From a virus: a stretch of 64,000 nucleotides of DNA. Shown here piece by piece: positions 4,380 to 55,473 of this stretch. The stretch is from IMG/VR virus record IMGVR_UViG_3300028874_000370, positions 1 to 64,000 of that record. One strand, 5' to 3'. Within the stretch, counting starts at the first letter, position 1, and each line of letters begins with the position of its first letter. Under the pieces are notes generated by a model. That model did not search any database. It saw only the letters and a program-made list of their open reading frames with translations, and had not been told where the DNA came from. The translations under genes and the position numbers were made by a program.

Positions 4380-4380
4380 T

Positions 4381-4691
4381 ATTCTTTCCTATTTGAGTGG
4401 TGATAATCATAGCTTAAATGTCGGCCTAACACTTAAGAACCTATCGAGAGCTCTAAGAATATCACGAACTTTCGGCAAACGACAGGGATCATTCTACGTT
4501 TCCATCTTTACAAATGGAACACCGGGTCTCTCCGGCCTGAACTTCTATGAATATCAATGAGATGTTTCCAGTTTTATCCAACATACTGGTTTAATTTTCG
4601 GGCATTGGAGACCCTAGTTAGTTTTGCACAGTTCTTATCCGTGAACTACTAACAAAAATCGTCTGGTCATACTTCTCTAAACCGATGTTCT
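4381..4691 (-). ncRNA. Candidate structured RNA or long 5' leader, about 310 nt
   Basis: No convincing ORF. Several complementary segments are visible: GTTAGT/ACTAAC enclosing AGTTC/GAACT (4619-4654), TTCCAT/ATGGAA (4500-4519), CCAGT/ACTGG (4568-4589) and a long-range GGGTCTC/GAGACCC pair (4524-4530 with 4608-4614). Strand is assumed minus because both flanking genes are. It could be an independent RNA, the leader of the downstream membrane protein gene, or a piece of the same RNA system as the 5.2-6.3 kb block. Confidence 0.4.
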
Positions 4692-4871
4692 TTAATTATT
4701 AATTTGTACTAATGCAACTGGAGTAATAGTCCCGTCATCATTTGTCCAAGTTGATTGGATGATGTCATAAGATCCAAACGGCAAACCATCATCTGATTCG
4801 ACTAATAAATCCATTTCGGGATTTAGCAATTGCAATTTTAAAATTGATTGAGCAACAGTAAGTGGTTTCAT
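4692..4871 (-). CDS. Hypothetical protein, 59 aa
   Basis: ORF starting MKPLTVAQSILKLQ and ending in VALVQINN. Its ATG overlaps the stop of the preceding 90-aa gene in an ATGA arrangement, typical of translational coupling. It contains an acidic, beta-like centre (LLVESDDGLPFG). No family is recognised. The coupling and the uninterrupted frame are the support for it being real. Confidence 0.6.
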   Translation of the reverse strand: MKPLTVAQSILKLQLLNPEMDLLVESDDGLPFGSYDIIQSTWTNDDGTITPVALVQINN

Positions 4872-5140
4872 GCTACAAGTGGTCCATCTTCAGGTGATTG
4901 TTCTGGGGTGTCTACAACAGGAACTACATCAACAGGATATTTTTCTGGGTGATGAAACGAATCCGCCAATAGATCAACACGCTTTTTCATTTCGATTGAA
5001 ATTTCAGTAGTGTGTTCAAGTAAAGATTTAAAAACAATCCAACTTGATAATTCTGAAGCAGCAAGAATAACACTTTCATTTTTCGTCTTAATGCCATGAC
5101 GACACAGATCCAACAACGAATTAGTTGAGATTAAAGACAT
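4868..5140 (-). CDS. Hypothetical protein, 90 aa
   Basis: Helical N-terminal two thirds and a proline/acid-rich C-terminal tail. The start is preceded by AATAAGGTAAAC. It is the first gene after the large structured block at 5.2-6.3 kb and is coupled to the 59-aa gene by an ATGA overlap. No family is recognised. Confidence 0.6.
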   Translation of the reverse strand: MSLISTNSLLDLCRHGIKTKNESVILAASELSSWIVFKSLLEHTTEISIEMKKRVDLLADSFHHPEKYPVDVVPVVDTPEQSPEDGPLVA

Positions 5141-5238
5141 GTTTACCTTATTATTTTTATGCTGAAATCGGACGGCGGATAAGAATCACGCTGCTCTGTG
5201 ATTGTTATGGAACGCCTCTTCCGAATTATTGAAAATAC

Positions 5239-5438
5239 ATTTTGCTGAGAACTGCTAATCTGTATAATATTCCAACACCCATGCATAGGCAAAAAGGAAC
5301 AGAATCCAAATTATAACCCGATCTTACTGGTTCGGATAACTTACCACGCACACCCGGCACGTTGACTAGACTAATGCGGTGTACAACTTCATGGCATCAC
5401 TTAATCAGTCGAAATTAAGCAATTGTTCTCAGCAAAAT
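5239..5438 (-). other. RNA domain 3, closed by a 14-bp helix
   Basis: ATTTTGCTGAGAAC pairs with its exact complement, followed by inner TGCT/AGCA. Inside are CTTAAT/ATTAAG (5400-5418), CCGA/TCGG near 5330, and a 7-bp pair 5348-5354 with 5378-5384 that contains a wobble valid only on the minus strand. Confidence 0.55.
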
Positions 5439-5460
5439 ATATTCTCTTGCTTTGATATAA

Positions 5461-5719
5461 AAAATATTTTGTTGGAAGCCTGATGTAACTTTCGTCTTGA
5501 CTAGTGGTAGTGCACTGCACTAGACGTCTTGAAAATTGCATTGATATTCTCTTCGGTATATCAATCTACCGTACAACTAGCGCACCGGCTTTGCCGCACT
5601 GCCCGTCCATGACAAATAGAGGAACAGTACTTAGACGCCACTCTCAGTGGAGGCGTGTTCGCTGATCATCGTGAAATAGCTGTCCACTACTACCAAATTG
5701 GCTCCCAACAAAATATTTT
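5461..5719 (-). other. RNA domain 2, closed by a 20-position helix
   Basis: Nineteen Watson-Crick pairs plus one G.U (minus strand) join 5461-5480 to 5700-5719. Inside are an 8-bp hairpin ATTGATAT/ATATCAAT (5540-5566), CTAGTG/CACTAG (5500-5522), CGGC-TTT-GCCG and a hairpin around 5634-5655. Confidence 0.6.
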
Positions 5720-5724
5720 CTATT

Positions 5725-6252
5725 TAGAAATCATTGTGTTAGACCTTCATGTCCCGAGCATGAAGGCCACTACGTCTATTTTCGGGCTCTGGATCCCTAG
5801 ATCAATTATGGCATGATCGAAAATCCGGTGGCAAACCAGTTTATACTATCCACATATCTAGCCTTGATATGGGCTAATACAAAGCAAGCCGTAGACCTAT
5901 ATCTCGCTAGAAACTATAGGGTTCTTGCTAGGTGAATGCTGTACAAATCGGCGATTATCTCTCTCAAATTTTGTCTCTTGTCCTTATTGGACAGTTACTA
6001 TAGCTAGGTAAAGGGCATCATTTGGGTCATTCCCAGTGTGGTAGTTGAGGCGTGGCATCGATACATAATATACCGGAACGCCTCTATCATAAACTACGGA
6101 TATGATTAATCATTAGTTCACGCTGCATAATCCGATTCACGGATTGGCAGCAATGATTGATTATCACTCTCAATAGGACCTCGAAAGAATCCTACTCACT
6201 TCTTACTTCTTACTGTGTGTTGGCATTTAGTGATCCAACACAATGATTTCTA
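5725..6252 (-). other. RNA domain 1, closed by a 16-bp helix
   Basis: Contains a 10-bp hairpin (5742-5751 with 5759-5768) whose loop can pair with CCCGA nearby, suggesting a pseudoknot; AGCAAG/CTTGCT enclosing CCTATA/TATAGG (5882-5929); TGTCC/GGACA (5979-5993); GTAGTT/AACTAC enclosing GAGGCGT/ACGCCTC (6041-6096); and AATCCG/CGGATT nested in GCTGC/GCAGC (6123-6151). A local 8-bp hairpin (6216-6223 with 6235-6242) competes with the inner end of the closing helix. Confidence 0.6.
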
Positions 6253-6302
6253 TTTTGTTTTTAAAGAGCGTTGCTGTTTTGTGTTTCACAGCGTATGAGA
6301 TG

Positions 6303-6308
6303 ATTATA
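6303..6308 (-). promoter_or_regulatory. Possible -10 element (TATAAT) for the large RNA
   Basis: Minus-strand TATAAT about 50 bases upstream of the first closing helix and just downstream of the sugar dehydrogenase stop. GTACAA lies 16 bases further upstream as a weak -35. No other nearby gene needs this promoter. Confidence 0.4.
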
Positions 6309-6339
6309 CATAGGCCCTTTTTATTTGTACATAATTATT

Positions 6340-7608
6340 TTACATTCTCCAAACTTTAATTTTTGCTTCTTCGAATAGTGTTCTTTCCATCTTCCCTTTG
6401 ACATCTACGAAAGTTCCGTTGTTTTTTATTTTGGACAAGATTTGGTTCTCTCCAAGATTTAAAAGTTCACGGTGTGGAGTAGCAAGAACTACGATGTCAC
6501 ATTGTGGAATAGCTTCAAAGCTAACACCAGTCACTGCATAATTTTTAATTACATCGTGAACATCTGCAATCGGATCATGGATATAAAGTTTTTTGATTCC
6601 GGATCTGGCGAATTCGAGGACTAGATCTTCGACTTTAGAATTTCTCATGTCCTTACAATTTTCTTTGAATGTCAATCCAAGTATAGCAACAGTCAAGGTA
6701 TTTGGATCTTTATCCTTCAAGGCTTCACTTACTATAAATGATGCCATTCCATTATTTACCTGACGGGCATGTTTTAATAACTTGGCATCATACTTAACCG
6801 ACTCTGCCTTACTGATTAGATAGTATGGATCAACCCCAATACAATGGCCGCCAACTAAACCAGGACGATACCCAACAAAATTCCATTTCGACGAAGCAGC
6901 ATCTATCACTTCATTTGTGTCCAAACCGAGCTTATTAAATATCATAGAGAGTTCATTCATTAGCGCAATATTCACATCTCGTTGAATATTTTCTATAACC
7001 TTTGCAGCCTCCGCCACGCGTATGCTAGGAGCTTTATAAATTCCGGCTGTAATGATAGATTCATATAGGTGAGCCACGGCGTCTAGGGATGCCTGAGTGT
7101 CTCCTGCTACTATCTTTTTAATTTTAGTTACTGTTCTTTCTTTGTCGCCTGGATTGATTCGCTCTGGTGAATATCCAATATTAAAATCTTGAAGCCAAGT
7201 CATTCCAGAATGTTGTTCTAGAACAGGAACACAGATTTCTTCAGTGGCTCCTGGATACACGGTTGATTCATAGATCACAACTGATCCACGTTTCATGTGT
7301 TGTCCTACCAAAGCACTAGCGTCGATTAAACAAGTGAAATCTGGAACGTTGTGTTGATTGACCGGTGTTGGCATTGCTATGATAATGAAATCGGCTTCAT
7401 TGATCATAGCAATATCGGTGGTTGGAATAAAATAAGATGAGCTTAAAAAATCCTGAGAATCTAGTTCTCCATTAGGATCGATATGCTTTTTATATGACTC
7501 GATTTTTGACTCTGAAATATCATAGCCAATTGTTGTAAATTGTTTGCCAAATTCAATGGCGAGCGGAAGGCCTACATAGCCTAAACCGATGACTGCAATC
7601 TGTTTCAT
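6340..7608 (-). CDS. UDP-N-acetyl sugar (nucleotide-sugar) dehydrogenase
   Basis: 422 aa, full length for the UDP-glucose/UDP-N-acetyl-hexosamine 6-dehydrogenase family. The N-terminal NAD-binding fold starts VIGLGYVGLP (6-15). YSPERINPGD (146-155) and AKVIEN (202-207) belong to the central domain, and the catalytic cysteine is C256 in GGHCIGVDPYY. LTFKENCKDMRNSK lies in the C-terminal UDP-binding domain. These features fit the WecC/TviB/WbpA branch that makes uronic acid sugars for capsule or O-antigen. In a phage it could alter host surface sugars or feed a glycosylation pathway (inference). A degenerate late promoter lies upstream. Confidence 0.85.
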   Translation of the reverse strand: MKQIAVIGLGYVGLPLAIEFGKQFTTIGYDISESKIESYKKHIDPNGELDSQDFLSSSYFIPTTDIAMINEADFIIIAMPTPVNQHNVPDFTCLIDASALVGQHMKRGSVVIYESTVYPGATEEICVPVLEQHSGMTWLQDFNIGYSPERINPGDKERTVTKIKKIVAGDTQASLDAVAHLYESIITAGIYKAPSIRVAEAAKVIENIQRDVNIALMNELSMIFNKLGLDTNEVIDAASSKWNFVGYRPGLVGGHCIGVDPYYLISKAESVKYDAKLLKHARQVNNGMASFIVSEALKDKDPNTLTVAILGLTFKENCKDMRNSKVEDLVLEFARSGIKKLYIHDPIADVHDVIKNYAVTGVSFEAIPQCDIVVLATPHRELLNLGENQILSKIKNNGTFVDVKGKMERTLFEEAKIKVWRM

Positions 7609-12180: not shown

Positions 12181-14160
12181 TTAAATATGGCCTATTGATT
12201 GGCGATTCAGTTCATTAATACGGTCACGAAACTTAGCGGCCTTTTCATACTCTAGATTTTTTGATGCATCCTTCATAAGCCGCTGAAGTTCTTTGACTGA
12301 TTTATTATACAAAGATTCATCAAACGGGATATCAACTAATTCCTGATCAAGCATAGCCCTGATTTGATTTGACGCATTAACCGGATTTATTTTGTGTTTC
12401 TTATTATGCGCCAATTGTTTTGTCCGGCGGCGATCGGTTTCTTCTATTGCAGCAACCATAGACTTAGTTGTTTTGTCTGCATAGAAAATAGCATGGCCAT
12501 TAATATTTCTGGCAGCTCGGCCAATGGTTTGAATCAAGCTCCTAGCATTGCGTAGGAACCCTTCCTTGTCCGCGTCCATGACTGCGACTAGAGATACTTC
12601 AGGTAAATCAAGACCTTCCCTGAGAAGGTTTATACCGATCAGAACGTCAAATTTACCTAGGCGGAGATCTCGTAAAATTTCAACACGTTCTACTGCTTCA
12701 ACATCGCCATGGAGATATCGTGCTTTCAATCCATTGTCATGATAAAACTGACAAAGTTGTTCAGCCATTTGCTTTGATAATACGGTCACTAGAACTCGTT
12801 CGCCAACCTTTGCTCGGTCAGTAATCTCAGACATTAAATCATCAACTTGATATTTAGCAGGCCTGATTTCTATTTCTGGATCAACAATTCCAGTTGGCCT
12901 AATTACTTGTTCAGCTATATCAGTCCCAGACTTTGTTAATTCATATTCGCTTGGCGTAGCAGAAACAAATATGGTTTGGCCTAGTTTTGATTCTATTTCT
13001 TGAAAATTTAATGGGCGTGCATCATATGCTGATGGAAGACGGAATCCGTTATCAACTAAAACTTGTTTACGTGATTTATCACCAGCAAACATAGCACCTA
13101 ATTGAGGAACAGTAGTATGGCTTTCATCTATAAACGTAATAGCATTATCCGGAAGATAATCAAGAAGAGTTGTAGGCGGTTCACCAATCGCTCTATCGGA
13201 GAGGTGCCTTGAATAATTTTCAATCCCTTTACAATATCCGAGATTTTCCATCATTTCTAGATCAAATACAGTCCGTTCAGTAATCCGTTGGGCTTGGATA
13301 TATTTGCCTTCACTCATAAATTTTTGAGCTTGTGCTTCCATTTCTAAACGAATTGCATCAAGAGCAGGACTCATTCGTTCAGCACCAACCACATAATGGG
13401 ATGCAGGAAAAATAGTGAATGAAGTTAATTTTTGTTTTGTGACTCCGGTAATGGAATCAATCATTTTGAGTTCTTCGATAGTATCACCAAAGAACTCAAT
13501 TCGGATCGCATAATCTCCGGATTCAGCTGGTTGAATAGTTAATGTATCACCATTCTTTTTGAATTCACCCGGGCTTAAAAGCTTATCAGATTTAATAACT
13601 GTATATTGAGCTTTAATAAGCCTAGAGACTAAATCACTTTGTGACTCTTGGCTATTAGCTTCTAGCATAATGGCGTGTGATTCAAGTTCATATGATTCAC
13701 CAAGGCCATAAATTGCTGATACGGTAGACACTATAATCGTATCTTGGCGAGTCAAAATGGATTTGGTCGCAGCAAGCCTAAGTGTTTGCAAATAAGCATT
13801 AACCATCGAATCTTTATCAATGTATTTGTCTTGTGCCGGAAGATATGTTTCTGGTTGATAATAATCAAAATATGAAACAAAATATTCTACAGCAGCATTC
13901 GGAAAGAATGCTTTCATTTCCGAATAGAGTTGTGCACATAAGGTTTTGTTTGGGGCGATTATGAGGGCGGGCCTATTTGTTTCAGCAATGACTTTAGCCA
14001 TTGTGTATGTTTTTCCGGTCCCGGTTGCGCCAAGTAATGTTTGAAATCCTAACCCATCGGTTAGCCCAGTCACCAATTGTTTGATAGCCGCCGGTTGATC
14101 GCCGGCCGGCGAATGAGGAGTATGAATCCGGAATGGCTCTTTGGTATAGTTGATAGACAA
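12181..14160 (-). CDS. uvrB: UvrB, excision nuclease subunit B
   Basis: 659 aa, full bacterial length. Walker A is GATGTGKT (44-51). The DNA-gripping beta-hairpin region YFVSYFDYYQPETYLP, the FFGDTIEEL domain, the FIDESH motif II and the C-terminal helicase motifs GINLLREGLDLPEVSLVAV and QTIGRAARN are all intact. A UVR motif (EKAAKFRDRINEL) that binds UvrA/UvrC closes the protein. UvrB loads at DNA lesions handed over by UvrA and recruits UvrC. No uvrA or uvrC lies in this window, so it probably works with host partners. An extended -10 promoter lies just upstream. Confidence 0.95.
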   Translation of the reverse strand: MSINYTKEPFRIHTPHSPAGDQPAAIKQLVTGLTDGLGFQTLLGATGTGKTYTMAKVIAETNRPALIIAPNKTLCAQLYSEMKAFFPNAAVEYFVSYFDYYQPETYLPAQDKYIDKDSMVNAYLQTLRLAATKSILTRQDTIIVSTVSAIYGLGESYELESHAIMLEANSQESQSDLVSRLIKAQYTVIKSDKLLSPGEFKKNGDTLTIQPAESGDYAIRIEFFGDTIEELKMIDSITGVTKQKLTSFTIFPASHYVVGAERMSPALDAIRLEMEAQAQKFMSEGKYIQAQRITERTVFDLEMMENLGYCKGIENYSRHLSDRAIGEPPTTLLDYLPDNAITFIDESHTTVPQLGAMFAGDKSRKQVLVDNGFRLPSAYDARPLNFQEIESKLGQTIFVSATPSEYELTKSGTDIAEQVIRPTGIVDPEIEIRPAKYQVDDLMSEITDRAKVGERVLVTVLSKQMAEQLCQFYHDNGLKARYLHGDVEAVERVEILRDLRLGKFDVLIGINLLREGLDLPEVSLVAVMDADKEGFLRNARSLIQTIGRAARNINGHAIFYADKTTKSMVAAIEETDRRRTKQLAHNKKHKINPVNASNQIRAMLDQELVDIPFDESLYNKSVKELQRLMKDASKNLEYEKAAKFRDRINELNRQSIGHI

Positions 14161-34281: not shown

Positions 34282-36498
34282 TTATTGACAAGCTATACAT
34301 TCTTCACCTTTACTACCAGATACACCAGCTTTAGAATAGATGTAATAAAGTGCATGAATCATTTCATCTTCAAAAGCTATTTGATGGATACGTGCAATGT
34401 ATGCTTCATCCGCATCAGCACTAAAGAACAGATTAACCGATTGTCCTTGATCAATAAACCTTTGGCGTTGAGATGCCATTCTGAGAATTGCTTCTTGATT
34501 AATTTCAAAAGCTGTTCTGAATACCATCTTTTCATAATCATCAAGCCAATCAACACCTTGAACAGAACCCTGTGACTCGACTAGTTCTTGCCAATGTTTA
34601 CGATCATAGACCCCTTTCTTCTTCATCAAAGCAAGAAGGATTGGATTAGCACGATCCACTTCACCAGCTGCAGTCAATTGGGTAAAGGTCATTGCTGGAT
34701 CCGGGTTAATCCCTTCCGAAACTCCACCCATGATCAAAGCAGTACTCTTGGTTGGTGCTACAGCCATCGTGTGGGTATTTGCGAACCCGGTACCTTTACA
34801 CCATTCAGGCTCACCGAACACGGTCGCTAGGAACGCAGAGGCGGCTTTAGACTTTTCTTGAATGCCTTTGAATAAGATGTTGTTAAACATCATTGCTTCA
34901 AGACTTTCAAATGGAATCATTTGTGATTGGAGGTATGTATGAAAGCCGCATACTCCTAAACCAAGTGCCATTCCTTTTTCTGTTGCGCGAACTGCTTTTT
35001 CGAGACCTTCAATACCTTTTGCTTTCTTTATGAATTCTAAAGCTACACAATGTAGGAATACAGTGGCTACAAAAACAGCATCCGTATCTTTCCATTCTGG
35101 ATATTTTGAAGCATTCATCGAACTCAACACACATGTAAAGGTGTGGTATGAATCAGAGAATAATTCTATTTCCGAACAATTATGAACTAATACCCCTCTT
35201 GAAGTTAAATGTTTGTCATCTTCAGATCCAGTAATAATGTAAAAAGAATGACTATCATAATTGTCAGCTTCAACAGAAAGATCATAAACATCTTCTATTC
35301 CTGCACTAACAATAGAAATAACACTCAATCCTTTGTACTTCAACATACTATTTTTATATGTTGCAAATGGTTCTAATTCCAGCCCAACACAATATTGTGC
35401 TTCAACCCATTCGCCAGAAACAGTTGCTAATGGGTGATCTGGAGTACACTTAAATGTATCGCCATTTGAAAGAGTGAGCTCGATTATTTCACGGATTCCG
35501 GTTTTGAAAGCCTTTGCTTTTTTAATATCATGTTTCCAATTTGATCCTTCTAGAAGACCTCCACCTCTAATTCCTCTATTTTTAGCTTTTGATTTATTTG
35601 CAGAGTATACTTCAAATTGTACATTTTCTTCAGCCAATTGTTTGATTGAAACAGCATTACGTCCATCAGCCACTGCTACTTTTGTATCACCACTAAAACA
35701 AAGATTTGATGCGGTTACATATAGATTATTATTGATATATGCTTGTGGTCTATATCTATTAACCTTATCGATGAAATGATAATATCCTTTCCCAGTAACC
35801 ATCTTAACTTTCTGGGTCTTTTTAAATCTACGATGATATTCTGGATTACCGTCATTCAATCCTTTAACAAACTCATCGGTAATAGTCCAACCTAGATTTG
35901 CATCATCTGGATTGGATTCAACAAAGTGAATGATTTCATCAAAGTCACCATGAGTTGGTTTGAAGTATGCAGCAAATGATCCACGTCTTGCTGTGCCTTG
36001 TGCGACATCTCGCATATCTTGGATAAAGCCTTTGAATACTGGTAATGGCCCAGATGCGGTTCCACCAACAGATATATCTGAGCCACGGGCACGAATATCA
36101 TTTAGATAACCAGATGTCCCAAATCCATGTTTAGTCAATATAGCTGTTTCGTGGCGGGATTTATAAAATTCATTAATAGAATCGCCGACATATTGACCAG
36201 AACATGATACAGGCATACCGCGATTTGTTCCCATGTTAGCTAGGATTGGGGTTGAACATGAGACCCAGCCTTTCCAGAGAATTTCAAAGAAACGAGCTTC
36301 CCAATCATTACCATCTGGCATATGAGCGGCTGCAGTTTTAGCAATCCGTTGGTATTGTTCTTTTACTGTTTTTGCTTCATACAAGTATTTAGATTTGAAC
36401 ATTTGCCACGATCCAGTTGAAAAAAATTCTGGCATGGTTCCATCTAATTGCATTTGCTTACGTTCAGCACTTAATTCTTCGTATTTATTCTTTGCCAT
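34282..36498 (-). CDS. nrdA: Ribonucleotide reductase large subunit NrdA with intein
   Basis: 738 aa, of which 174 are an intein. The mature 564-aa protein has the class I alpha features: SCSTPILANMGT, the NLCSEI active-site cysteine (re-formed after splicing), an MNASKYPEW stretch and the C-terminal redox pair CIACQ. It lacks an N-terminal ATP cone, so overall activity regulation may be absent. It reduces ribonucleotides to deoxyribonucleotides with NrdB, encoded just upstream (one base between stop and start). Confidence 0.93.
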   Translation of the reverse strand: MAKNKYEELSAERKQMQLDGTMPEFFSTGSWQMFKSKYLYEAKTVKEQYQRIAKTAAAHMPDGNDWEARFFEILWKGWVSCSTPILANMGTNRGMPVSCSGQYVGDSINEFYKSRHETAILTKHGFGTSGYLNDIRARGSDISVGGTASGPLPVFKGFIQDMRDVAQGTARRGSFAAYFKPTHGDFDEIIHFVESNPDDANLGWTITDEFVKGLNDGNPEYHRRFKKTQKVKMVTGKGYYHFIDKVNRYRPQAYINNNLYVTASNLCFSGDTKVAVADGRNAVSIKQLAEENVQFEVYSANKSKAKNRGIRGGGLLEGSNWKHDIKKAKAFKTGIREIIELTLSNGDTFKCTPDHPLATVSGEWVEAQYCVGLELEPFATYKNSMLKYKGLSVISIVSAGIEDVYDLSVEADNYDSHSFYIITGSEDDKHLTSRGVLVHNCSEIELFSDSYHTFTCVLSSMNASKYPEWKDTDAVFVATVFLHCVALEFIKKAKGIEGLEKAVRATEKGMALGLGVCGFHTYLQSQMIPFESLEAMMFNNILFKGIQEKSKAASAFLATVFGEPEWCKGTGFANTHTMAVAPTKSTALIMGGVSEGINPDPAMTFTQLTAAGEVDRANPILLALMKKKGVYDRKHWQELVESQGSVQGVDWLDDYEKMVFRTAFEINQEAILRMASQRQRFIDQGQSVNLFFSADADEAYIARIHQIAFEDEMIHALYYIYSKAGVSGSKGEECIACQ
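35179..35700 (-). mobile_element. Mini-intein in NrdA, 174 aa
   Basis: Begins at C267 (CFSGDTKVAVADG, block A), has CTPDHPLAT with the T-x-x-H of block B, VYDLSVEADNYDSHSF of block F and ends GVLVHN followed by C441. Splicing would join ASNL to CSEIEL, placing the insert exactly at the catalytic cysteine. There is no LAGLIDADG or HNH segment, so it is a mini-intein without a homing nuclease. An extra stretch of about 15 residues separates blocks F and G. Confidence 0.88.
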
Positions 36499-46290: not shown

Positions 46291-47817
46291 TTAAAATATC
46301 ATTGGTGCAGCTTCATTACCATAAGGATCATCGCTATCAAGAAGATCATCATCCTCAGTCGAATACATCATCTCAAATACTGATTCTTCATAATCCGCTG
46401 CTTTCTTTAATACATTCATAACAATCAACATGGCTGCTACTAAGTCATCTGTTGCACCGGGTTTAGCATGATATGTTGTCTTACCATTCGAAATATAATT
46501 CTTGAGTTCCATCAATAGTAATTCAGAATTAACAGTGAGACCTCCAGTAGTTTTTTCTATTAATCGTTTTAATTCTAGGCAAGCTAGTAATTTGGATTTG
46601 GCTGAAGTATTCATTCCAATCCGATCATCATCGCTAAGCAGGACGGCGTCAGGGAACTTGTCTTCATTTTGGTATAGTGCAACAATAGAAGCACCAACGC
46701 CGTTGTTCTCGAAGCTCCAGTAGACCTCAGGGGACTTTCCTCGATCAGTCTTAGGTGCCTTTAGATAAGTCAGTATCCATTTGATTCTGGCATACAATTG
46801 TTGCGGTGTAATTGTATTAGATCTAAATTCAGCGAATTGTTTCATTGATGGAAATTCAAGAACTTGGATAGTCGAATAATCCCCAGAGACGCCTACTGAA
46901 ATATCAACACCAACATAGTATGAATTTCTGACATCGACCTCACCCCAGAATTTAAATCCGCGATCTTCCATAATAGGCATAGAAGATTTAAGTTGTTGGA
47001 GCTTAATTGAATTAATCAATAATGGATCCGATGATAAAAATTCACATCCATACTCTTGGCGAAATTTCAATTCGCCAATTTGGCCAATCATTTTATCTTT
47101 GAACGTCGCATCTCTTTCCGGATGTGCATCCCACGAAGTTTCGAATGGAGTAAACCCATTTGTCCCAAGAACTGCGCCGCGCCATAAGGTAGCAAACAAT
47201 TCATTATCGCCATTAGGCGTTGATGAAATAATTAAATCGCCACCAGTTGATAATGTTGGCGCCATCGAAGTCCATAAATCTTCCTGAATAGATTTACGAA
47301 CGAAAGCAATTTCATCAATGAAAATTTTAGCACAAGCAAGACCACGACCAGTATTAGCTGTTGTCGCTTGTGATATCATTCTAGAATCATTATCAAATTC
47401 TATTGAAGTCTTATTGTAGCTCTTAACACCCGGTTTCAGCCAATGTGGAAGTTCTTCATACGCATATTGAATTCTCTGCATAATTTCAATAGCATTACTG
47501 AATTTATTACTAGCAACAAGAACCAATTTATCCGAATGGAAAATAGCAAACCAAAAGAAATAAATTGCAACAGTCAATGTTTTACCTTGTTGACGCCCAA
47601 CTTTCAGAATATTAAATTTATTGGCATGCAGTTGTTTAACCATATCTATTTGATATGGGTATAAAATAAACTTTACTTTCCCTCTTACCGGATGTTGTAT
47701 GTAAACATAATTCTCCATAAAGTACACAGGATCTTTCTTACACTTAACTAATTCTTGGATTAATTCTGGTGTATATTCAGAAAGAGCATTTGGCGCTTTT
47801 AAATAATCATTCGCCAT
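46291..47817 (-). CDS. 17: Terminase large subunit (T4 gp17-like), full length
   Basis: 508 aa. The ATPase domain has GRQQGKT (74-80) as Walker A, IFIDE (165-169) as Walker B and SSTPNGDNE as coupling motif. The nuclease domain shows YYVGVDISVGVSGDYS, SFENNGVG and GATDDLVAAM, the three acidic clusters of the RNase-H fold. It packages DNA into proheads and cuts headful ends. The start overlaps the stop of an ATPase-only paralog by 11 bases, so translation is coupled. Confidence 0.95.
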   Translation of the reverse strand: MANDYLKAPNALSEYTPELIQELVKCKKDPVYFMENYVYIQHPVRGKVKFILYPYQIDMVKQLHANKFNILKVGRQQGKTLTVAIYFFWFAIFHSDKLVLVASNKFSNAIEIMQRIQYAYEELPHWLKPGVKSYNKTSIEFDNDSRMISQATTANTGRGLACAKIFIDEIAFVRKSIQEDLWTSMAPTLSTGGDLIISSTPNGDNELFATLWRGAVLGTNGFTPFETSWDAHPERDATFKDKMIGQIGELKFRQEYGCEFLSSDPLLINSIKLQQLKSSMPIMEDRGFKFWGEVDVRNSYYVGVDISVGVSGDYSTIQVLEFPSMKQFAEFRSNTITPQQLYARIKWILTYLKAPKTDRGKSPEVYWSFENNGVGASIVALYQNEDKFPDAVLLSDDDRIGMNTSAKSKLLACLELKRLIEKTTGGLTVNSELLLMELKNYISNGKTTYHAKPGATDDLVAAMLIVMNVLKKAADYEESVFEMMYSTEDDDLLDSDDPYGNEAAPMIF

Positions 47818-48559
47818 TATCTAAGTCCCACTCAAACTCTCTATACCAGGCTTTCTGTCCAAGTACAGCCATCATATTTTTTTTGAATTCTTGTCCTCTT
47901 TCAGGATGCTCATCCCATCTAATATGACACTGTTCCAATATCGAACTATCACACAGTGTTTTAGCGATTTCATCATCATCAGACATAGTAGATAAGATTG
48001 CAACACTGCCACCTCGGTCATAAGTTAAACCAATATTACCTAGTAAATATTGCTGAACAGATTTCCTAACAAATAAAAATTCATCAAAAATTAAATATGA
48101 TACTTTAATTCCTCTACCAAAATTATCGGAGGAGCATGCATTAGATATAATCCTGGAACCATTAAAAAATTCCAGTTTTTGCATTGTATTAATATTTACT
48201 TTTGGAATTAACCATGTTGGCAATTCCTTGAGTGCGATTCTAATAATGCTCATTATGTGTTGTGCATTATTGACATTGATTGTGCCAATCAAGATATTTT
48301 GGCTGGGCCAGAAGATTGCTAACCAAAGAGAAAATAGTGCAGAGATAAGAGTTTTACCAACCTGTCTTGGCCCAATAGAAATAATATTGCCACGATGCAT
48401 AGCATTGATTAAATCAATTTGGTATGGGTATAGATTGATAGACACCAATCCATTAATTGGATGTTGAAACTTGCAATACTTGTTGATGAAATAAACTGGG
48501 TCTGTTTCGCAGAGGAAAAACTCATTAATAAGTTCTTCAGAATACCCTATTGGTAGCAT
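47807..48559 (-). CDS. ATPase-only terminase paralog, 250 aa
   Basis: Aligns throughout with the N-terminal half of the adjacent terminase: DPVYFINKYCKFQHPINGLVS, LYPYQIDLINAMH, Walker A GPRQVGKT (63-70), Walker B LIFDE (156-160) and the LSTMSDDDE coupling position. It stops right after the ATPase lobe, with no nuclease. The catalytic residues are kept, so it may hydrolyse ATP or form mixed motors with TerL. A strong AAAGGA ribosome site and a late promoter lie upstream, which argues for real expression rather than decay. Confidence 0.8.
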   Translation of the reverse strand: MLPIGYSEELINEFFLCETDPVYFINKYCKFQHPINGLVSINLYPYQIDLINAMHRGNIISIGPRQVGKTLISALFSLWLAIFWPSQNILIGTINVNNAQHIMSIIRIALKELPTWLIPKVNINTMQKLEFFNGSRIISNACSSDNFGRGIKVSYLIFDEFLFVRKSVQQYLLGNIGLTYDRGGSVAILSTMSDDDEIAKTLCDSSILEQCHIRWDEHPERGQEFKKNMMAVLGQKAWYREFEWDLDNGE

Positions 48560-54330: not shown

Positions 54331-54338
54331 TATTTATC
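54331..54338 (-). promoter_or_regulatory. Late-promoter variant GATAAATA
   Basis: Minus strand, about 26 bases ahead of the MKVSDIFLLAE start, inside the 3' end of the nifV-like gene. Confidence 0.5.
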
Positions 54339-55449
54339 GTATAGCAAAAAGAAATCTTTTCAAATCTTGTTCAGAGGGTTCACATTTAAATTCCATAGCA
54401 TGATTTCTAACATCAGTTAATAACAATCTAACTTGTCTTTCAGTAGGAAATAATCCAAGCAACTCATAGGCTTTACGAATACCCTGAGACCCAGAATGCT
54501 TACCAAGTACTATCGAATGTGTCCGGCCAAGTTCAGCCGGATCGAATCCTTGATATGTCAAAATATTCTTAGCCAAACCATCAGTATGAATTCCAGCCTC
54601 GTGAGAAAAGACTCCAGCACCTACAATGCTCTTATTAGTCGCTACACTGCGCCCTGAGGCTTTCTCGACGAGCCGTGATATACCAAGTAAGGCTTTTGGA
54701 TCGATCCCACTATCGGTGTTATAGAGATGCTTAACGCCCATGACTATTTCTTCTAGTGCAGCATTACCGGCACGCTCGCCAAGTCCATTTACTGTGGTAT
54801 TAGCATGAGTAGCTCCAGCTTTTAAAGCTGCCAAGGTATTTGCTGTTGCTAATCCAAGATCATCATGAGCATGAATTTCAAGCTCAATATCAACAATCTC
54901 TAATATTCTAGAAATACTTTCATAGGTAGAAAATGGATCTAAAACACCTAGAGTATCAGCAAACCGAATTCTGGAAGCTCCAACCTGTTGAGCTCGTTTA
55001 GCAACCTTGATTAAAAATGAAAGATCTGCTCTTGATGAATCTTCAAGACCTAGGGATATTTTATATCCTGTCTTGACTGCTTTACCAATAACCCTGGTAA
55101 TTTCATCAAGAACCCATTCTCTAGATTGTCTGAGTTTATATTGGAGATGAATATCCGATACAGGAATAGAAAGATGGATAATGTCTGGTGTACATTGTAA
55201 TGCCGCATTAAGATCCGAATCTGTTAGACGACCCCAGACCATTAATTTGGAATTGAGATTTAATGAAGTGATAGCTTGAATACATTCAATCTCATCGTCG
55301 CCCATAATAGGAATTCCTATTTCTAATTCTGGAACTCCAGCATCAGATAAAGCTTGAGCTATATCACATTTTTCTTTTGTTGTGAAGGCTACACCAGCAG
55401 TTTGTTCACCATCACGAAGAGTTGTATCATTAATAATTGGATTTTGCAT
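54334..55449 (-). CDS. nifV: Homocitrate synthase, NifV-like
   Basis: 371 aa from [10 protein letters not shown]; an ATG 8 codons earlier would lie upstream of the transcription start from the late promoter. DTTLRDGEQ (8-16) is the metal and substrate motif of the DRE-TIM family, with [33 protein letters not shown] and [12 protein letters not shown]. The whole pattern is nearest to NifV homocitrate synthase (acetyl-CoA plus 2-oxoglutarate), which supplies homocitrate for the nitrogenase cofactor. It lacks the C-terminal leucine-feedback domain of LeuA. LeuA-like or citramalate synthase activity cannot be excluded. Confidence 0.85.
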
Positions 55450-55473
55450 AACTTGTATTGTAAGTATATGCAA

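Follow-up and report, generated by a model that had tools for sequence, protein, structure and literature searches.

A phage locus with a predicted minus-strand noncoding RNA of about 1 kb, built of related closed domains behind a leader that resembles that of rRNA operons

What does a phage encode in about 1 kb of DNA that holds no apparent gene? The question is raised by a block in the stretch of DNA analysed here (the window), bases 1-64000 of a 102,153-base IMG/VR phage record; this phage is called A, and its relatives B, C and D. Judged from its list of open reading frames, phage A has a T4-like gene set for replication and packaging, and its terminase is about 40% identical to the terminases of the jumbo phages XacN1 and PA5oct. 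Elsewhere in the window are a full-length UvrB homolog (12181-14160; Pfam domains UvrB_inter, UvrB and UVR), an ORF for the ribonucleotide reductase large subunit (34282-36498) with an intein-like insert that starts CFSGDTKVAVADG and ends LVHNC, a partial terminase-like ORF of 250 aa (47807-48559) directly upstream of the terminase gene and resembling its N-terminal half, and an ORF (54334-55473) that reads like a homocitrate or isopropylmalate synthase and is possibly a phage metabolic gene. The block itself lies between a gene for a UDP-glucose/GDP-mannose dehydrogenase of 422 aa (6340-7608, minus strand; assigned through Pfam), its upstream neighbour, and a 90-aa gene downstream (4868-5140, minus strand), whose product found no match in a Pfam search and has no assigned family. 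A first-pass annotation had described 5237-6296 as gene-less, and so it is: between 5141 and 6339 the minus strand has no ORF of at least 50 aa, and the plus strand has only two, each of 53 aa and chance-like.

Read on the minus strand, the block resolves into three successive domains, each closed by a long inverted repeat. Domain I (5725-6252, 528 nt; fold z -5.3) is closed by 19 bp between arms 6252-6234 and 5743-5725, domain II (5457-5723, 267 nt; fold z -6.0) by 24 bp between 5723-5700 and 5480-5457, and domain III (5231-5446, 216 nt; fold z -5.9) by 22 bp between 5446-5425 and 5252-5231. These are the three closing repeats that the first-pass annotation had noticed, although the lengths it gave (16, 20 and 14 positions) were too short and the edge of the block reaches slightly further, to 5231. 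The longest repeat, of 24 nt, compares with a maximum of 18 in 60 dinucleotide shuffles and of 17 in other sampled 1.1-kb windows of phage A. Together the closing helices comprise 65 pairs, 60 of them Watson-Crick and five G-U, with no mismatches, and all five G-U pairs fall on the minus strand, that is, as A/C on the plus strand; four such pairs had been counted earlier, together with one case of the opposite sense, which does not occur within the maximal arms. Minimum free energy z-scores of the block are -8.2 for the minus strand and -4.1 for the plus strand, with -0.3 and -1.7 in control windows. The earlier proposal that the block encodes a noncoding RNA of about 1 kb on the minus strand is well supported, by these features and by the relatives and covariation described below. 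Domains I-III have closing helices that are mutual copies, which makes an origin of the domains by duplication probable. Behind domain III, a 3' tail with small hairpins (5150-5230, minus strand) runs into an upstream motif, AAAAATAATA, and the beginning of the next gene; an intrinsic terminator was not found in this tail, and BLAST matches to the motif elsewhere in phage A and in related phages suggest that it is a gene-upstream element.

A search of related phage contigs gave syntenic relatives in three, so that the known members number four, from metagenomic contigs. In each relative a gene-less block stands directly after the dehydrogenase gene (B, L037:3062-3979; C, L071:4270-5081; D, L141:13538-14689), and this gene is thus directly upstream of the RNA in four of four phages, the protein of A being 57%, 69% and 59% identical to those of B, C and D. 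The small gene is present in A, B and C in the same orientation as the RNA (44-49% protein identity between relatives, 44% for A and B) and absent from D. Phage B, a 184,871-base contig, was reached via terminase relatives of A, and a scan of it for gene-less, strongly folding blocks returned 918 nt (z -8.1) between the same two genes, with three domains, whose closing helices of about 20-25 bp contain one A-C and one C-A mismatch; the second and third of these domains are paralogous (z 13.5). Because the two strands of the B block fold alike (z -6.6 and -6.8), its strand is assigned from synteny and leader. Phage C, reached by a scan with the dehydrogenase pair, has a single domain, enclosed by an inverted repeat of 28 nt (93%), and then the small gene. 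The contig of phage D had been fetched for another reason and was matched by the leader covariance model described below (E=1e-5); its dehydrogenase gene, 100 nt upstream, was recognised only after that match. Phage D has retained the leader together with a gene-less stretch that folds (z -5.8 to -7.0), and its transcript region stops at a 17-bp intrinsic terminator ahead of the next gene. No 20-bp closed domains are recognisable in it, which suggests that the leader is able to serve other cargo.

Searches by primary sequence added little to this set. Neither the block, compared by blastn with phage and plasmid records, nor the blocks of its relatives gave any match, which points to fast drift of the primary sequence, and a small-protein scan of viral and bacterial contigs returned relative B only. 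A promoter-hairpin pattern scan returned B and one site in L069, which on reading lies inside a coding region and was set aside as chance. In hairpin-boxA scans C alone was real, two other viral and 21 bacterial-genome matches lacking the 5' hairpin arm and appearing chance-like. The leader model found nothing above chance in the jumbo phages XacN1, CM1, PA5oct, Atu_ph07 and Munch, which suggests a family restricted to a single clade.

Covariation of the closing helices in homologs, on which the early proposal of an RNA had been made to depend, is found. Four closing helices, the three of A and that of C, align gap-free over 18 pairs with 72 of 72 cells paired; at seven of the 18 pairs both partners are changed, and no pair is broken, a result reached by none of 500 shuffles, slid versions giving 0-1. 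The rows of this alignment were preselected as inverted repeats, so that pairing within a row is given and the evidence lies in the changes between rows alone; an inverted repeat maintained at the DNA level would be expected to show the same covariation. Between domains II and III of B, 50 of 50 consensus pairs are kept and 15 are changed on both sides (at most two in slid versions), the percentage paired being biased upward because these two sequences also supplied the consensus, and here the covariation extends to internal helices. Domain II of A resembles the single domain of C locally (z 3.5, with a score inside the shuffle range); a global alignment of the two, unreliable in its interior, was discarded as evidence.

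One loop is also conserved. In domain II of A the hairpin AUUGAUAU-ACCGAAGAGA-AUAUCAAU (5540-5565, minus strand) carries the loop RCCGAWGARA, which occurs seven times in the genomes of A and B, three times on stems of at least 6 bp (at 5540-5565 in A and once each in domains II and III of B) and four times stemless. The stems, of 6-8 bp, differ in sequence and are found only within these RNAs, and a similar loop, ACCACCGAGA on UGUUA/UAACA, was seen by eye in phage C. A kissing contact of UUUCG-type loops in domains I and III with a CCGAAG loop in domain II was weighed on reading the sequence and is not claimed, since the complementarity spans 4-5 bp and is inconsistent in relative B.

By covariance-model searches the RNA of the block belongs to neither GOLLD nor ROOL, nor to any other family in Rfam. 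An Rfam 15 search of the window returned no match at gathering score, a permissive scan (E<=10) of 4380-6400 gave chance-level matches only, and a scan of L071, from phage C, gave no applicable match. The GOLLD covariance model (RF02032, E<=10) has no match in the four phages and the ROOL model (RF03087) none in A, B and C; its one match in D, of 5.6 bits with the cut-off at 99.1 bits, lies outside the RNA block and is attributed to chance. The suggestion that the block might belong to one of these families finds no support, and a new family, the other option then offered, is the better of the two. The window contains no tRNA-like T-arm motif, phages A and B (G000 and G008) have no TROVE match, and the features that define YrlA-type Y RNAs (a Ro60-binding basal stem, a tRNA-like module and a TROVE protein) are lacking from the window RNA.

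Other structured elements lie near these loci. A second structured RNA, also conserved, adjoins the small gene (window 4420-4695, minus strand; L071:5361-5660; L037:5965-6240). Between A and C it has long invariant stretches, ATTAAACCAGTAT..TGGATAARACTGGAAACATC and GAAGTTCAGGCCGGAGA..CCGGTG, and at eight of 31 consensus pairs both partners are changed; its 5' half is common by eye to B and C, and a plus-strand ORF of 87 aa, probably spurious, overlaps it. Phage B has a gene-less, hairpin-rich stretch (L037:5510-5690) between two small genes, followed by the upstream motif ACACAAAAATAATA. A compact element of the form P1-GUUGCGUA-P2-UUACUUC-insert-P2'-P1' recurs at L071:4740-5060 and 5700-6180 and in L096, L097, L098, L100, L101 (phage D), L102 and L103. 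In several contigs the insert is a circularly permuted tRNA (T arm, acceptor, D arm), and a TROVE/Ro60 protein is present in seven of seven searched contigs with the element, neither being seen in phages A and B. The elements went undetected by ARAGORN and, in L071, by Rfam; by comparison with PMC8394870 they are best read as YrlA-type Y RNAs, five in C with differing tRNA bodies.

Ahead of domain I lies a candidate sigma-70-like promoter (6303-6331, minus strand), with the -35 element TGTACA at 6331-6326, a spacer of 17 nt and the -10 element TATAAT at 6308-6303, from which transcription would start at about 6297. It matches the consensus at 10 of 12 positions, a likeness that is not significant alone (8 such sites found, 7.3 expected), and the segment aligns with the same place in the three relatives. 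Phage D shares the -35 hexamer TGTACA with A, the spacer being 17 nt in both, and all four phages have a -10-like element and a conserved stretch, CTCATACGCTG or a near variant. In phage D (L141:13623-13663) the -10 region is framed by a perfect inverted repeat of 14 bp, ATCAGCGTATGAGT / ACTCATACGCTGAT, which may serve as an operator. The promoter is followed by a 5' leader hairpin, GCUGUGAAACACAAAACAGC (6273-6292, minus strand), in a boxB-like position and aligned in A, B, C and D. A leader covariance model, R1, built from A, B and C, matched among 22 records searched its three sources and phage D. Next comes a boxA-like sequence, CGCUCUUUA (6262-6270, minus strand), the sole YGCTCTTTNA in the window (1.4 expected), and 20 nt after it, inside the first closing helix, the boxC-like UGUGUUGG. 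Phage C repeats this order, with the hairpin, then UGCUCUUUC, then UGUUGUUGGG 20 nt on; boxA is present in A and C, degenerate in D and absent in B.

It is with the leader of bacterial rRNA operons that this arrangement invites comparison, an analogy of our own. In rrn operons boxB, boxA and boxC, together with a leader-trailer helix longer than 17 bp, act in antitermination and 30S assembly, the RNase III site overlapping boxC within that helix (PMC10250234), and at boxA sites, some of them outside rRNA, RNA polymerase is joined by NusB and SuhB (PMC4807359). In E. coli the rrn leader, confirmed in 5,395 of 5,426 genomes at a median of seven copies, contains UGCUCUUUA and, 19 nt after its UGCUCUUU, also UGUGUGGG. 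In local alignments to it the score of A was reached by 11 of 1000 shuffles and that of C by one of 1000; for the leaders of B and D no likeness of this kind was seen. The shortness of the boxC similarity, the absent or degenerate boxA of B and D, and the lack of 20-bp closed domains in D count against an rrn-style reading. Closing helices longer than 17 bp are found in A (19, 24 and 22 bp) and in B and C (about 20-28 bp), not in D. By these comparisons the leader of A resembles the E. coli pre-16S leader.

Taken with the structure, strand, synteny, helix covariation, duplication and conserved loop read from the sequences, this leader similarity leads to the explanation preferred here, to which about an even chance is given: that the block is a minus-strand noncoding-RNA gene or operon, antiterminated in the style of rRNA, whose closed domains are matured at leader-trailer-type helices. 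Transcription would begin at the promoter just past the dehydrogenase gene and yield a transcript with a leader hairpin, followed in A and one relative by boxA and, within the first long helix, a boxC-like sequence at rRNA-like spacing. Host Nus factors would load at this leader and allow RNA polymerase to cross about 1 kb of untranslated sequence unhindered by Rho-dependent termination; in each domain the nascent 5' arm would be held until the 3' arm emerges. The leader-trailer-type helix of 19-24 bp that would then close each domain is a plausible substrate for RNase III, and cleavage would free compact structured RNA domains, presumably derived by duplication. Our working guess is that the mature domains are abundant structural or host-directed RNAs, analogous to ROOL and GOLLD.

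Rather less probable is that an unprocessed RNA of about 1 kb folds as a whole, as a new ornate family in the manner of GOLLD and ROOL, and self-assembles by loop-loop contacts into a multimer. The size, the phage setting, the dense hairpins and the conserved hairpin loop all suit such a particle, and conserved loops on covarying stems are the trace that kissing contacts would be expected to leave; moreover, GOLLD and ROOL are often close to tRNA islands (PMC12286853), and phage C has tRNA-like Y RNAs directly behind its domain. The covariance models of both families are nevertheless without a match, a convincingly complementary loop pair is not established, and a domain number of three in A, three in B, one in C and none recognisable in D is hard to square with one fixed particle.

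The synteny and shared orientation of RNA and small gene in A, B and C, with no terminator found between them in A, would also be in keeping with control of the 90-aa gene downstream by the block, acting as a long structured 5' untranslated leader. Such a leader is improbable, because in phage D the small gene is missing and the RNA is followed by a strong terminator, the small gene owns an upstream motif that recurs before other phage genes, and about 1 kb with three duplicated domains far exceeds known leaders. The intrinsic terminator of D, before the next gene, supports a separate transcription unit. Very unlikely indeed is an origin of the repeats as DNA elements (recombination sites, packaging or replication signals, or remnants of mobile elements) with the RNA fold as a by-product. 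That the helices are near-perfect and duplicated in the genome speaks for this reading, but every imperfect pair in A is G-U on one strand, the minus-strand folding bias reaches beyond the repeats, internal helices of the B domains covary, and the promoter-leader and single-stranded loop sequences are conserved.

Few large structured RNAs of phages are known, and among them GOLLD and ROOL proved to form RNA cages. The family proposed here is a candidate separate from both, supported by covariation and missing from Rfam, and an rRNA-type boxA leader with closing helices suggests a route by which a phage could make a long untranslated RNA; at one phage locus, large RNAs, Y RNAs and Ro60-type proteins are linked. 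A bolder extension of the antiterminated-operon explanation can be advanced only tentatively: that these loci represent a new phage RNA class, with a modular operon for noncoding RNA in which a borrowed rRNA antitermination leader and leader-trailer helices serve to mass-produce duplicated domains, standing alone in A and B and followed by Y RNAs in C and D, that perhaps compete with or mimic rRNA maturation during infection.

Among known systems, YrlA-type Y RNAs share with the RNA the same gene-less interval in C and D, but they are not part of the window RNA and none was found in the record of phage A. ROOL is likewise a large ornate phage-encoded RNA, though its model of about 574 positions, set against about 1,060 nt here, finds no match and its architecture differs. 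GOLLD is a highly structured, phage-encoded noncoding RNA of about 0.8-1 kb, and tRNA-related genes lie near the block RNA in one relative; the block differs in having no covariance-model match, tandem duplicated closed domains and an rRNA-like leader. GOLLD and ROOL occur in phages, often near tRNA islands, with tRNAs sometimes held in the linkers of GOLLD, and both form RNA-only assemblies (PMC12286853); the block is like them only loosely, as another large and ornate RNA of phages. With the pre-16S and pre-23S units of bacterial rrn operons the block shares the order of hairpin, boxA and boxC-like sequence and a long helix that closes a large untranslated RNA, although the RNA enclosed in the phage block is not rRNA and boxA is lost or degenerate in two of the four members.
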